A DNA stretch of 64,000 nucleotides from Sphingomonas tagetis (GTDB lineage Bacteria > Pseudomonadota > Alphaproteobacteria > Sphingomonadales > Sphingomonadaceae): positions 124,001-188,000 of the forward strand of contig NZ_JAMLDX010000006.1 in NCBI RefSeq assembly GCF_024211275.1, given 5' to 3'. Of this stretch, positions 8,136 through 13,012 are shown piece by piece. Under the pieces are notes generated by a model that did no database searches, was not told where the DNA came from, and was given only the letters and a program-made list of their open reading frames with translations. Position 1 is the first letter of the stretch. Each line of letters starts with the position of its first letter. Both the position numbers and the translations under genes were made by a program.

Positions 8136-8677
8136 GGGCGGACAGGTGCCGGGAGTTCGAGCGCAAAGCAATCCGGATGATGGAAGTCGGGCTTGCCCGG
8201 AGGGTGTTTCAGCGCCCAATAGGATTTGGTGCCGTTGGCTTCTTCGATCACCGCGGACAGGCCGATCGCATCTGGCCAGGCGGACAAGGCGCCCAGTTCG
8301 ACATAAGCGGTCAGACCCAGCCTGCCATCGTCGCGCTCGACATGGATGTAAGGCGATGGGTAGGCGGGCTGCATTCCTTCGCGATAGCCATCGAACCGGT
8401 AGGCCGCCCAATTCTCAGACGGCGAATAGTTATGCTCGACATAACCGACACCCGGCACCCGGATGAACGCTTCGAAACATGTATGCTGCCACAGCCCATC
8501 CGCTCGGTCGCCAATCACGGACGGCGGGATCACGACACGATCGAGTTCGCCGGTCAGCGCGTACTCGATGCGCAACACGTCGCGGCTGAGCATCATCAGC
8601 TTGGTGCCGATCGATATCGGTGGCGCTTCGCTGCCTGGATGCGCCACCAGCCCGCGCTTCGCCAACACTCTCCCCAA
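8132..8677 (-). CDS. DOMON-like domain protein
   Basis: A 181-residue beta-sandwich protein resembling the DOMON-like (murB-like) group common in sphingomonads, a possible carbohydrate- or ligand-binding fold. Recognisable stretches are [40 protein letters not shown] and [20 protein letters not shown]. The likely start is TTG at 8677, because GGAGGA lies 6 bases upstream; GTG at 8668 is an alternative. No signal peptide is seen. It heads a coupled three-gene unit with the NamZ-like and nucleotidyltransferase-like genes, which hints at a shared role in cell-wall sugar handling. It is divergent from tyrS with only about 30 bases between the starts. Confidence 0.75.
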
Positions 8678-8709
8678 AGCCGTTCCTCCATGCTAACCGC
8701 GCCGCCACC

Positions 8710-9933
8710 ATGACCGAATACCAGTCCGATCTGCTCCGCCTTTTGTCCGACCGTGGGTACATCCACCAGGTCACCGATGCCACTGCGCTCGACGCGCTGG
8801 CGAGCAAACAGATCGTGCCCGGCTATATCGGCTTCGACCCGACCGCGCCCTCGCTGCATGTCGGCAGCCTCGTGCAGATCATGCTCCTGCGCCGCCTCCA
8901 GCAGAGCGGGCACAAGCCGATCGTGCTGATGGGCGGCGGCACCGGCAAGGTCGGCGACCCGAGCTTCAAGGACGAAGCGCGCAAGCTGATGACGGCCGAG
9001 ACGATCGCGTCCAACATCGCCTCGATCAAGACCGTGTTCGAGCGGTTCCTCACATTCGGCGACGGTCCCACCGACGCGGTCATGCTCGACAATGCCGACT
9101 GGCTCGACGCGCTCGAGTATCTTCCCTTCCTGCGCGACTATGGCCAGCATTTCTCGGTCAACCGCATGCTCTCGTTCGACAGCGTCAAGCTGCGGCTCGA
9201 CCGCGAGCAATCGCTGTCCTTCCTCGAATTCAACTACATGATCCTCCAGGCCTATGACTTCCTGGAATTGAACCGCCGCTACGCCTGCCGGCTGCAGATG
9301 GGCGGGTCGGACCAGTGGGGCAATATCGTCAACGGCATCGAGCTGTCGCGCCGCGCCGACGGGGCCGAAGTCTATGGCGTCACCACCCCGCTGATCACCA
9401 CCGCGGACGGCGGCAAGATGGGCAAGACCATGTCGGGCGCGGTGTGGCTCAATGAGGATCAGCTGCCCGCCTTCGATTACTGGCAATTCTGGCGCAACAC
9501 CGACGACCGCGATGTCGGCAAGTTCCTGCGGTTGTTCACCGACCTGCCGCTCGACGAGATCGCGCGTCTCGAAGCGCTCGAAGGCGCTGGGATCAACGAG
9601 GCCAAGAAGATCCTCGCCACCGAGGCGACCGCGATGTGCCGCGGGCGCGACGCAGCCGAAGCAGCGGCGGAGACCGCGCGCAAGACGTTCGAGGAAGGCA
9701 GCTCGGGCGACTCGCTCCCGACGCTCGACGTCGGTGGCGAGATCAGCGTGGTCGATGCGCTGGTAGGTCTAGGCTTCGCCGCGTCGAAGGGCGAGGCGCG
9801 GCGACTCATCAAGGGCGGCGGCGCGCGCATCGATGGCGAAAAGGTCAGTGACGAGGCCGCGACGGTTACGGTCGCCGCGCAGGTTCGCGTCTCGGCCGGC
9901 AAGAAGCATCACGGCCTGCTGAATCCTGTCTGA
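8710..9933 (+). CDS. tyrS: Tyrosyl-tRNA synthetase
   Basis: Class I synthetase that charges tRNA-Tyr in the cytoplasm. It is 407 residues long. The HIGH-type motif appears in [11 protein letters not shown] (about residue 50), the tyrosine-pocket region as [11 protein letters not shown]-like [16 protein letters not shown] (about 195-210) and the KMSKS-type loop as KMGKTMSG (about 237). A C-terminal S4 RNA-binding domain is visible in [17 protein letters not shown] (about 360-377). This is the bacterial TyrRS form (TyrZ-like length). It is divergent from the DOMON-like gene; the gap is too short for two separate promoters, so one probably lies inside the opposite coding region. Confidence 0.97.
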
Positions 9934-10026
9934 TAGCCTTTCGGTAACCACGCCGGTTGCGGTGGCGTTTACATCCGGCGCTTACCACCTGCTTCCAATG
10001 GCTTGGGCCAAAGAGCTGGGGCGCTT

Positions 10027-10347
10027 GTGACGTACCATTTCTCGACCGTGACGGCTGACGAACGGCGTGTGGCGGACCGCGACGAGGTCCATTACCGCGC
10101 CCGCGCCTTCGGTCCGGACGCCCGGCCGCACACATTGCTCGTCGTCAACCTCTCCCCCCACGGCCTGATGGCACGCTGCGACGCCGATTTCGCCGAGGGT
10201 GACCGGTTGCGGATCATGCTCCCGGTGGTGGGCGTCGCCGTCGCCGAAATCCGCTGGTGCCTGGGCGGCCGGATGGGCGTCAATTTCGAGACAGCGATCG
10301 ATCTCGCCAGCTATTACGAGCTGCTCGCCCAGCTAATGAAGAAATAG
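10027..10347 (+). CDS. PilZ domain protein
   Basis: A 106-residue single-domain PilZ protein, expected to bind cyclic di-GMP. The two binding motifs are visible: RVADR (RxxxR) near residue 15 and NLSPHG (N/D-x-S-x-x-G) near residue 44, followed by the short beta barrel ending in MGVNFE. I use the GTG at 10027, preceded by GGGGCG; a TTG at 10003 would add 8 residues without a ribosome-binding site. The stop TAG at 10345-10347 is the first three bases of a long inverted-repeat element, so the present C-terminus (QLMKK) may have been set by insertion of that element. Confidence 0.8.
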   Translation: MTYHFSTVTADERRVADRDEVHYRARAFGPDARPHTLLVVNLSPHGLMARCDADFAEGDRLRIMLPVVGVAVAEIRWCLGGRMGVNFETAIDLASYYELLAQLMKK

Positions 10348-10614
10348 GGTTCAGACCGATAACCGGCAACGGCCGGGATCGCCCGGAGATGGGCGCTGGC
10401 AAGGAAGCTCGCGCAGCACGGGCTGGTGGCCCGTGCTGCGCGAGGTGACGCGGTCCAGCGTTCATCTCCGGGCGACCGAAGCGGCGGGCGCATTTTGGCG
10501 CTGGGCGGCGTCATTCGTCGGTCACGAGGCCGCCACCTCGCTCCCTCCTCATTTCTTGCCCAACGCCAAAATGCGCTCCGTCACGGCCATTGCCGGTTAT
10601 CGGTCTGGACCCTA
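10345..10614. repeat. Nested palindromic element (MITE/REP-like) between PilZ and recG
   Basis: The terminal arms 10345-10375 and 10584-10614 are inverted repeats matching at 29 of 31 positions, beginning TAGGGT and ending ACCCTA. Inside are two further hairpins. The first has an outer 13-bp perfect stem (10379-10391 with 10463-10475), a 6-bp stem CGCTGG/CCAGCG, and a 16-bp perfect inner stem (10408-10423 with 10429-10444). The second has a 13-bp perfect stem (10488-10500 with 10564-10576) and a TGGGC/GCCCA continuation. Nearly the whole 270 bases folds into a three-way structure. No transposase frame is present. It fills the space between two convergent genes, and its ends touch or abut both stops. 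Confidence 0.85.
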
Positions 10615-10615
10615 G

Positions 10616-12673
10616 TCAGCCGGCCCGCAACAGCCCGACCGCCGCATCGCGCTCGAACAGGTACAGCGCCACCCGCGCCGCCGCGCCGCGCTCGCCTTCC
10701 AGCCCGCCGTCACGGTCGACCAGCAGCCGCGCATCGGCATTGGCCGCGCCGATGAGCTCGGCGAACTTCTCCGGCGGCGCGAGCCTGAACGTCTGCTCGC
10801 CCGACTGCCGTGTGCCCAGCATCTCGCCCGCGCCGCGCAGCCGCAAATCCTCCTCGGCGATGCGAAAGCCGTCATTGGTCTCGCGCATCAGCGCCAGCCT
10901 CGCCCGCGCCGTCTCGCTCAGCGTGCCGCCGCGCAGCAGCACGCACACCGACCGGCCCCCGCCGCGCCCCACGCGCCCGCGCAGCTGGTGCAGTTGGGCA
11001 AGGCCGAAGCGGTCGGCATGCTCGATCACGATCAGCGTGGCGTTGGGCACGTCCACCCCTACCTCGATCACCGTCGTCGCCACCAGCACGCCGAGCTCGC
11101 CTGACGAGAAGCGCGCCATCACCGCGTCCTTCTCCGGCCCCTTCATCCGCCCATGCACCAGCCCGATGCGATCCCCGAACCGAGTCTGCAACGTCGCCGC
11201 GCGCGCCTCGGCGGCGGCGAGGTCGGTCTTCTCGCTCTCCTCGACCAGCGGGCACACCCAATAGGCCTGCCCGCCGCCCGACAGATGCCGCGCCAGCCCA
11301 TTGACGATCTCGTCCAGCCGCTCCTCGCTGATCACGCTCGTCTCGATCGGCTCGCGCCCCGGCGGCATCTCGTCGAGCTTGCTCACATCCATCTCGCCAT
11401 GCGTCGCGAGCTGGAGCGTGCGCGGGATCGGCGTCGCGGTCATCACCAGCAGATGCGGCGCGGTCTTCGCCTTGGCCTGAAGCATCATCCGCTCGGCCAC
11501 GCCAAAGCGATGCTGCTCGTCGACTACCACCAGCCCCAGATCGCGATACTCGACCCCCTGCTGAAAGATCGCATGCGTCCCGATCAGGATATCGATCGAC
11601 CCGTCCGCCAGCCCCATCAGCGTCGCTTCGCGCGCCCGCCCCTTGTCGCGCCCGGTCAGGATCGCAAGGTTCACCCCCAGCCCCGAAAACAGCCGCTGCA
11701 ACGTCTCGAAATGCTGCCGCGCGAGGATTTCGGTGGGCGCCAGCATCGCCCCCTGCGCCCCGGCCTCGACCGCGATCAGCAGCGCCATCGCCGCGACCAA
11801 TGTCTTGCCCGCGCCGACATCGCCCTGCAGCAACCGCAGCATCGGCCGCGACTGCGCCATGTCGCCCTCGATCTCGCCGATCGTCCGCGCCTGAGCTCCG
11901 GTCGGCGTGTACGGCAGACGTAACGCATCGCGCAGCCGCCCCGTGCCCGCCAGCGCCCGCCCCTTCTTCCCCCGCGCCGCGCCGCGCACCAGCATCAGCG
12001 CCAGCTGGTTGGCGAACACCTCGTCATAGGCCAGCCGGTCGCGCGCCTTCACGTCCGCCGGATCGGCGTGGATGCGCTCGAGCGCTTCGCGCCAGTCCGG
12101 CCAGCCATGTTTCGCCTTCAGGCTCGGCTCGATCCATTCGGGCAATTCCGGCGCGCGCTCGACAGCCTGCGCCGCCAGCGCCGCCAGCCGCTTCGAGGTC
12201 ATTCCCTCCGACAGCGGATACACCGCCTCGCGCCCACCCGGTTGCGCATCCGCGGGCAGCACAACCTCGGGATGCACGATCTGCAATTCCTGACCGTACT
12301 GATCGAGCTTGCCCGACACCCAGCGCGGCTCGTTGAGCGGCAGTTGCTTCTTCGCCCAGCCCGAATTGCCGCCGAAGAAGACCAGCGTGACGTAATTGCC
12401 CTTGCCATCCACCGCCTCGACCCGCGCCGGCGCTCGCGCACTCCCGCTCATGCGGTAGTTCACCGGCGTCAGTGTGATCGCGATCGTCCGCCCGACATCG
12501 GCCTGATCCAGTTCCTCGCGCGGGAGCCGGTCGATCCACCCGCTCGGCAGGTGAAACGCCACGTCCACCGCGCGCGCCAGCCCCAGCCGCTCGAGCGGCT
12601 TGGCAAGCTGTGCCCCCACGCCTTTGAGCGCGGTGACTTCGGCAAACAATGGATTGAGGATTTCGGGCCGCAT
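10616..12673 (-). CDS. recG: ATP-dependent DNA helicase RecG
   Basis: Branch-migrating helicase that remodels stalled forks and Holliday junctions. It is 685 residues long, the usual length. The N-terminal wedge/OB-fold region contains VKGVG-like LKGVGAQLAKPLERLGL, followed by the helicase motor with Walker A GDVGAGKTLVA, DEQH box DEQHRFGV, motif III TATPIPRT and motif VI region QLRGRVGRGG. The start ATG at 12673 gives the family-typical MRPEILNPLF; a longer in-frame reading runs through non-coding sequence. It is divergent from sdhE-mfd across a 72-bp gap containing an inverted repeat, and convergent with the PilZ gene across the palindromic element. Confidence 0.96.
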   Translation of the reverse strand: MRPEILNPLFAEVTALKGVGAQLAKPLERLGLARAVDVAFHLPSGWIDRLPREELDQADVGRTIAITLTPVNYRMSGSARAPARVEAVDGKGNYVTLVFFGGNSGWAKKQLPLNEPRWVSGKLDQYGQELQIVHPEVVLPADAQPGGREAVYPLSEGMTSKRLAALAAQAVERAPELPEWIEPSLKAKHGWPDWREALERIHADPADVKARDRLAYDEVFANQLALMLVRGAARGKKGRALAGTGRLRDALRLPYTPTGAQARTIGEIEGDMAQSRPMLRLLQGDVGAGKTLVAAMALLIAVEAGAQGAMLAPTEILARQHFETLQRLFSGLGVNLAILTGRDKGRAREATLMGLADGSIDILIGTHAIFQQGVEYRDLGLVVVDEQHRFGVAERMMLQAKAKTAPHLLVMTATPIPRTLQLATHGEMDVSKLDEMPPGREPIETSVISEERLDEIVNGLARHLSGGGQAYWVCPLVEESEKTDLAAAEARAATLQTRFGDRIGLVHGRMKGPEKDAVMARFSSGELGVLVATTVIEVGVDVPNATLIVIEHADRFGLAQLHQLRGRVGRGGGRSVCVLLRGGTLSETARARLALMRETNDGFRIAEEDLRLRGAGEMLGTRQSGEQTFRLAPPEKFAELIGAANADARLLVDRDGGLEGERGAAARVALYLFERDAAVGLLRAG

Positions 12674-12697
12674 GACTATCTGCCGCTGCCTACACCC

Positions 12698-12727
12698 AGC
12701 CGAGGGCGCACGAAAGCGCCGTCGGCT
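12698..12727. repeat. Inverted repeat in recG/sdhE divergent region
   Basis: AGCCGA-G-GGCGC and GCGCC-G-TCGGCT pair as an 11-bp stem with one internal mismatch around a short loop. It sits mid-way between the divergent starts of recG and sdhE and could be an operator or a structured leader. There is no T run. Confidence 0.4.
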
Positions 12728-12745
12728 ATTTGCCGTTGAGGAATC

Positions 12746-13012
12746 ATGGACCGCGAAACCCGCCTGAAACGCCTCCGCTTCCGCGCCTGGCACCGCGGCG
12801 TCAAGGAAGCCGACCTGATGATCGGCGGCTTCTTCGACGCGCATCACGCGGGTTGGAGCGATGCCGAGATCGAGCTGTTCGAGACGCTGCTCGAGGAACA
12901 GGATGTCGACATCATGGCCTGGGCGATGGGAACCCAGCCGGTACCCCCGGAGTATCACGGCACGATCATGTCCGCGCTCAAGACCCTGAACTACGTGCCT
13001 GTCAGCAGATAG
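12746..13012 (+). CDS. sdhE: FAD assembly factor SdhE (succinate dehydrogenase assembly factor 2)
   Basis: A small 88-residue helical protein of the SdhE/YgfY family that helps attach FAD covalently to the flavoprotein subunit of succinate dehydrogenase. The diagnostic RGxxE motif is present as HRGVKEAD, followed by the family pattern FE-x-LLEEQDVDIMAWAMG. The start follows TTGAGGAATC, a good ribosome-binding site. Its stop TAG shares a base with the GTG start of mfd (TAGTG), so the two are translationally coupled, although their functions are unrelated. Confidence 0.93.
   Translation: MDRETRLKRLRFRAWHRGVKEADLMIGGFFDAHHAGWSDAEIELFETLLEEQDVDIMAWAMGTQPVPPEYHGTIMSALKTLNYVPVSR

Follow-up and report, generated by a model that had tools for sequence, protein, structure and literature searches.

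The palindromic element of about 270 bp that lies between two convergent genes in the window (the 64,000-nucleotide stretch of Sphingomonas tagetis DNA analysed here) is best explained as a MITE-like element with IS427-type ends, moved in trans by IS427-type transposases, that has retained a core of nested hairpins; we put the probability of this reading at roughly 0.83. The dispersal of the family, the ends and the target that its copies have in common, the covariation of its stems and the recent mobility of a short subfamily are all directly observed. The element belongs to a MITE-like family that has the ends of insertion sequences (ISs) together with an unusually conserved nested-hairpin core. 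Under the model that we propose, a transposase of the IS427 group, presumably supplied in trans, would bind the ends of about 17 bp and insert the element into a YTAR site, leaving a TA at both ends. The window copy most likely entered a stop codon of the form TAR at the end of the gene opposite recG; there the element's initial G would have restored TAG, so that neither neighbouring gene lost its end. Between the ends lies a conserved core of two related, inverted hairpins, joined in most copies by a mini hairpin; the stems of this core change freely yet stay complementary, and the internal loops change less.

The initial annotation described a non-coding, three-way nested palindrome that joins the ends of two convergent genes, and most of this description holds (Table 1). 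The element lies between the upstream ORF, whose TAG stop codon (10345-10347) is formed by its first three bases, and recG, with a stop codon at 10616-10618 on the minus strand; the ORFs listed over it are mechanical only. Positions 10335-10624 fold with an energy of -204.7 kcal/mol on the plus strand (z -13.9; shuffled mean -126.4) and of -202.9 kcal/mol on the minus strand (shuffled mean -120.5), and none of the 200 shuffles matched the real energy on either strand. The three-way architecture is the minimum-energy fold of the window copy. The hairpins had also been called perfect, which is correct for the 16-bp inner stem of hairpin A but not for the outer stems of hairpins A and B, which are 90% and 95% complementary, respectively. 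The identification of the upstream gene as PilZ is not supported by Pfam, the 114-aa ORF matching no family up to E 10.

Table 1. Features of the window copy and its neighbours (window positions).
Feature	Position	Strand	Basis
Whole element with flanking TA dinucleotides (MITE-like copy, 270 bp)	10345-10614		fold; boundaries common to other copies
Left target TA; with the element's first G, TAG stop of the upstream ORF	10345-10346		sequence; YT..AR context in 178 copies; empty sites of other copies
Right target TA	10613-10614		sequence; target context; empty sites of other copies
Terminal arms	10345-10378 / 10581-10614		self-match, 91% complementary over 34 bases
Left terminal inverted repeat, IS427-like, AGGGTTCAGACCGATAA	10346-10362	+	14/17 identical to an end of IS L311
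Right terminal inverted repeat, IS427-like, AGGGTCCAGACCGATAA	10597-10613	-	15/17 identical to an end of IS L311
Outer stem P1, left arm	10346-10378		self-complementarity, consensus fold, covariation
Outer stem P1, right arm	10581-10613		self-complementarity, consensus fold, covariation
Hairpin A, outer and inner stem	10379-10475		window fold, self-complementarity, consensus fold
Hairpin A, outer stem (21 nt)	10379-10399 / 10455-10475
Hairpin A, inner stem	10408-10423 / 10429-10444
Place of the mini hairpin; here CCG-AAG-CGG only, 3 pairs	10476-10484		consensus fold, 33 copies
Hairpin B, basis of covariance model R1	10485-10580		self-complementarity, alignment, model searches
Hairpin B, stem (19 nt)	10488-10506 / 10558-10576
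Hairpin B conserved motif, internal loop and inner stem, GGAGGGAGCGA...TCGTGACCGACG	10516-10548	-	motif search (0 expected by chance); alignment A1
Upstream ORF, 114 aa, ending in the element's TAG; start uncertain	10003-10347	+	ORF list; similar ORF adjoins recG in several relatives (by eye)
recG, convergent neighbour; start from mechanical ORF	10616-12958	-	ORF list; RecG by Pfam

The fold is conserved across the family. In the consensus of 33 of the 37 full copies (alignment A2, from which L021, L032, L045 and L046 were left out as divergent, deleted or inverted), an additional mini hairpin lies between A and B; it is present in most copies and absent from the minimum-energy fold of the window copy. 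Standard pairs occupy 96.8% of the 3192 pair cells in this alignment, double changes are found in 64 of the 97 pairs, and none of 500 shuffles was as good, structures slid along the alignment being far off as well. A sequence confined to a single locus and lacking covariation, the outcome that the initial annotation had named as fatal to both a mobile element and a selected RNA, is clearly not what was found. Judged by eye, the two hairpins seem to be related, one being an inverted version of the other (AGGAGC...GCGACGC). Three copies (L046, L032 and L126) carry the interior of hairpin A in the opposite orientation, as if flipped inside its stem.

Complementarity of this sort could also be kept up by template switching or gene conversion between the arms, without selection. 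Such copying would account for arms that pair well and nevertheless differ widely: the left arms of different copies are 50% identical on average, and the arms of one copy pair at 95.7%, compared to 67% when an arm is paired with that of a foreign copy. It would also fit the excess of double changes over independence that is already apparent between copies with 94-96% identity (168 single and 37 double changes, with 6.5 double expected). However, the closest copies, those at least 96% identical, differ by 38 single and 1 double stem changes, so that nearly all changes are uncompensated; instant copying between arms predicts a different tempo. At 80-82% identity, there are 1855 single and 4978 double changes, of which 4736 keep Watson-Crick pairs. 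Stem mutations seem to be uncompensated first and compensated in the lineages that persist, as selection predicts, a tempo that is indicative only because the pairs of copies share ancestry and are not independent, and because the alignment onto which short copies were placed is a long one. Taking these observations together, we consider maintenance of the palindrome by template switching or gene conversion to be fairly unlikely.

If selection maintains the pairing, it could act on RNA or on DNA. The element might be mainly a functional RNA (a terminator, an insulator, a substrate of RNase III or a small RNA) that was dispersed in the form of a mobile cassette, with selection on transcripts of either strand. 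Such an RNA would be consistent with the very stable fold of both strands, with the covariation of the stems, with the better conservation of the interiors of A (84%) and B (88%) than of the outer stems (78%), with the 168 gene 3' ends that face elements, and with a slight excess of G-U over A-C in P1 alone (112 versus 83, p 0.04). However, if folding of a single RNA strand were selected, G-U should far outnumber A-C mismatches, and a balance is seen instead: there are 226 G-U and 272 A-C among the 12382 outer-stem cells of 175 copies, an imbalance with a p value also near 0.04 and a direction opposite to that in P1, and 60 G-U compared to 40 A-C in the 33-copy set. (Both this test and that of tempo used 175 of the 178 copies with readable arms.) Such a balance could equally come from selection on transcripts of both strands. 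Moreover, scans for promoters and terminators found no terminator-like or promoter-like sites, the 13 matches up to E 10 in a scan of Rfam 15 were all far under the gathering score, and the enrichment of copies between divergent rather than convergent genes (see below) is unlike that of terminators. An RNA-only reading is thus unsupported by the Rfam scan, by the promoter and terminator scan and by the G-U to A-C comparison, and the proposal of a structured RNA active on both strands gained no support from these tests; we regard a function mainly as RNA as distinctly unlikely. Under the preferred reading, a mobile element with IS427-type ends, pairing would be selected at the level of DNA, where a fold-back or cruciform may join the ends or may protect the element from clearance, and the function of the core may be that of its loops as a putative binding site of the transposase or of a host factor. 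Variable stems with less variable loops form a data set on why bacterial mobile palindromes stay palindromic, and on whether the selection acts on DNA or on RNA.

The element family is mobile. In genome G083, three 190-bp copies are 100% identical and another is 99% identical to them, all in different flanks; two further copies, at 95-96%, have a common right flank. Across 178 copies, position -2 of the target context is Y in 162, position -1 is T in 122, position +1 is A in 125 and position +2 is R in 160. The complete YT..AR context is found in 82 copies; the T and the A that adjoin the element are seen in no more than about 70% each, a point against the preferred reading. Among 42 junction-spanning alignments, six give a clear YTAR empty site (the others are too diverged or lack YTAR), and each of these six sites is CTAG or TTAG with one TA. 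The more similar pairs of empty and filled sites are L118 for L119 (94%, a repeat in the same genome), L176 for L267 (93%) and L229 for L026 (85%), and three more diverged pairs (L221/L137, L212/L151 and L264/L031) align at 70-75%. The junctions of relatives at the window site, which the initial annotation had proposed to compare, were also read: there the two convergent genes almost touch, with TGA abutting TCA in L055 and L056, where there is neither a gap nor a TA, and with CTAG as the stop in L066. The suggestion of a non-autonomous mobile element is thus well supported by dispersed copies, by identical recent copies, by empty YTAR sites and by IS5/IS427-like ends.

The likely mobilizer of this folded repeat family, which is spread across a bacterial order, can be named from its ends. 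IS5-family ISs with a DUF4096 (PF13340) gene share their terminal 17 bp with element arms; most are 837-847 bp long (L311, 743 bp), and L299, the one IS tested, has a DDE_Tnp_1 ORF. The IS ends are AGGGTCAGGACCCATTG (L299 and L317), AGGGTCCAAACCCAATCA (L410), AGGGTCCGGACCTATAA (L311) and AGGGTCGGGACYCATAA (G026). At least 14 of the 17 positions agree with an IS end in 87 of 356 element arms, as opposed to 1 of 356 when bases 5-17 were shuffled (Fisher p 2e-27). Complete 17/17 matches join L299/L317 to L038 and L410 to both L254 and L219, and 16/17 matches join L311 to L026, L012 and L011. All 20 IS copies (16 of them from G026) carry T on the left and A on the right. Judging from length, ends, TA/YTAR and DUF4096 rather than phylogeny, these ISs are candidate members of the IS427 group. 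Membership of the element in the IS5 family (IS427 group), as a MITE or non-autonomous element, is claimed in a broad sense only; its size, ends and target agree with it. At two places in G026 (C1, about 8526-10622 and 3903595-3905695), three adjacent DUF4096 matches of the same IS of about 839 bp were seen.

Several results count against this partnership. No IS with matching ends was seen near the three DUF4096 matches in the element's own genome (of these matches, two fall short of the cut-off), and elements and DUF4096 do not co-occur significantly (both in 32 genomes, the element only in 14, DUF4096 only in 43, neither in 12; Fisher p 0.37). The 190-bp class, which has AGAGCG ends, shows the clearest recent mobility, yet it has no known partner IS, the best end match being 10/17 (L045 apart), and a search of G083 gave no IS with the same ends. 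A search of G000 and G096 for an IS with type-2 ends (AGGGTCYRAACYC) gave 39 pattern matches; as far as these were read from the table, they are lone ends or pairs separated by a few hundred bp, with none at a distance of about 840 bp, and no such IS was found. The interior of the element gave short BLASTN matches only to four ISs (at most 34 bp, E at least 0.08), so an origin by internal deletion of an IS is unsupported. MITEs without descent by internal deletion are known.

A transposase of the IS630/Tc1-mariner type, which moves the RUP elements, also has a TA target and could be invoked in view of the TA at both ends of many copies. However, of the four genomes with the element in which DDE_3 (PF13358) was sought, one has it and three lack it, the preference is for YTAR, and the ends match IS5/IS427-like ISs, which makes an IS630-type partner very improbable.

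The element can be compared with several known systems, as far as the accessible text of the sources describes them. Like the IS5 family, IS427 group (IS711/IS6501, IS1248), it has terminal repeats of similar length, a YTAR target and TA ends (PMC2266754, PMC3281130); unlike them, it lacks a transposase gene, its length is 270 or 190 bp rather than about 840 bp, and its interior is unrelated to the four ISs compared. In the text available, IS711 appears to duplicate the TA of YTAR (PMC2266754), and IS5/IS427 elements of Paracoccus are 832-865 bp long, have 2-bp repeats in nearly all cases and in some carry two overlapping ORFs (PMC3281130). ERIC/RU-1, Correia/NEMIS and RUP are likewise small, with TA termini and a stable stem-loop fold (PMC2229807); going by their descriptions, the element differs in its branched fold, its conserved loops, its hypervariable paired stems and in ends that resemble several IS427-like lineages. 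Bru-RS1 and Bru-RS2 of Brucella are also palindromic repeats tied to an IS with the same target (IS711) but, unlike the element, are said to serve as hot spots at which the IS inserts (PMC2266754).

Paired or alphaproteobacterial hairpins are also known from the CIR elements of Caulobacter and from REP dimers of the CGTC and GTAG types (PMC2229807, PMC3733652). As described there, CIR elements consist of two arms and a linker and, unlike the element, have no end-to-end stem (PMC2229807), and CGTC REPs have stems of 8-9 bp, a CGTC tag and a CCA tail that set them apart from the hairpins seen here (PMC3733652). The element could still be built from several REP sequences and owe its dispersal to RAYT (IS200/IS605-type) transposases that act on folded single-stranded DNA: its paired, inverted and related hairpins recall REP dimers, and REP dimers nested in longer palindromes have been described (PMC3733652, in the part available). 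Its symmetric YTAR target, together with ends common to a DDE-type IS group, argues against such an origin, which we consider highly improbable. A plain REP (GTAG or CGTC; a hairpin of 20-40 bp with a short stem and an unpaired tag, according to the available text of PMC3733652) was rejected in view of the stems of 19-21 bp and the branched fold. Beside recG in L058, intergenic repeats similar to CGTCATTGCGAGCGTAGCGAAGCAATCCAG resemble the CGTC REPs described in the consulted part of PMC3733652.

An IS427-type target also explains why these repeats sit exactly on stop codons, YTAR containing TAR and the first G of the element remaking TAG. Gene context was taken from a codon-scored gene caller, with which genes split by a copy are not recognizable. 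The 172 placed copies lie between tandem genes in 82 cases, divergent genes in 47 and convergent genes in 43, compared to 355, 83 and 126, respectively, of 564 control gene pairs; copies are thus enriched between divergent genes but not between convergent ones. No called gene spans a placed copy, a result in which split genes would escape the caller. Among the 168 gene 3' ends that face a copy, 64 have their stop codon exactly at the boundary TAG. A stop codon is found at the site of 51 of 170 elements (30%) as compared to 108 of 511 non-coding YTAR sites (21%; p 0.02), and in 1 of 20 IS copies. Because the YTAR target holds TAR, which is often a stop codon anyway, the overlap with stop codons is mostly a by-product, and target availability explains most of the apparent preference.

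The BLASTN check that the initial annotation had suggested revealed further copies, with the family present in 17 of 61 genomes, its own included. Covariance model R1 of hairpin B was built from 41 sequences (alignment A1, 41 of 43 hairpins, without L032 and L038). It matched 15 times in the own genome. Within the genus, 61 of 121 genomes have matches (1 to 18 each); within the order, 43 of 246 do, and these represent 16 of 71 genera. The exact loop pattern occurs in 4 of 398 phylum genomes in the sample, all of the same genus. Carriers named among the matches listed are Sphingomonas, Sphingopyxis, Novosphingobium, Porphyrobacter, Croceibacterium, Qipengyuania, Tsuneonella, Sphingosinicella, Aureimonas and Gordonia. 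A distant BLASTN search of plasmids gave no match to the element, and viral contigs contained no exact match of the loop pattern. Judged by titles and abstract openings, no description of the family was found among the open-access papers that the searches listed, and the accessible parts of PMC10969869 and PMC2759123 hold nothing on this Sphingomonas element family. For the analysis of arms, 178 of 303 matches were kept after dropping 81 duplicates, 27 partial matches, 12 at contig edges and 5 without arms; these copies comprise 142 of about 270 bp, 25 of about 190 bp with a short hairpin A, and 11 of other sizes.

Contigs frequently end within a copy or close to one (L006, L010, L028, L035, L047, L048 and L356-L359), and copy counts may be lower bounds because the element may break assemblies. 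Copies L196, L200, L204 and L242, all of the 190-bp class, come from a record named Bacillus sp. 2B10, in which the surrounding G+C content is 64-69%; the record is probably mislabelled or mixed. In G028, copy L026 (C11:231389-231660) is a second, independent copy near the other end of recG.

Outside the Proteobacterial lineages, elements of Gordonia rhizosphera NBRC 16068 (L197, L238 and L240) have the same loop motif under unrelated arms (TAGTGGTGCTGTTCGG...), which suggests that the loop, and not the ends, is the conserved part. This genome has 13 matching places, self-complement rows being left out, and seven of them match over at least 129 of the 164 query bases. By eye, the ORFs that neighbour these copies and their G+C content look actinobacterial. 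We tentatively raise the possibility that the core, with the motif GTCGGTCACGATG...CATCGCTCCCTCCT, is a selected nucleic-acid module that occurs with the ends of several IS lineages in both Alphaproteobacteria and Actinomycetota, although we hold this to be doubtful at present. If it were so, the core would represent a recognition signal on folded DNA for a transposase or a host protein, a single parasite core with exchangeable tickets for transposition.

Finally, smaller palindromes (for example, GGGGCTCCCCGCAAAGTATTACTTTGCGGGG) sit within the hairpin loops of some copies and produce nested elements of up to 373 bp; such copies are L326 and L334 in G096, L035, L047 and L048 in G028, and L043 in G034.
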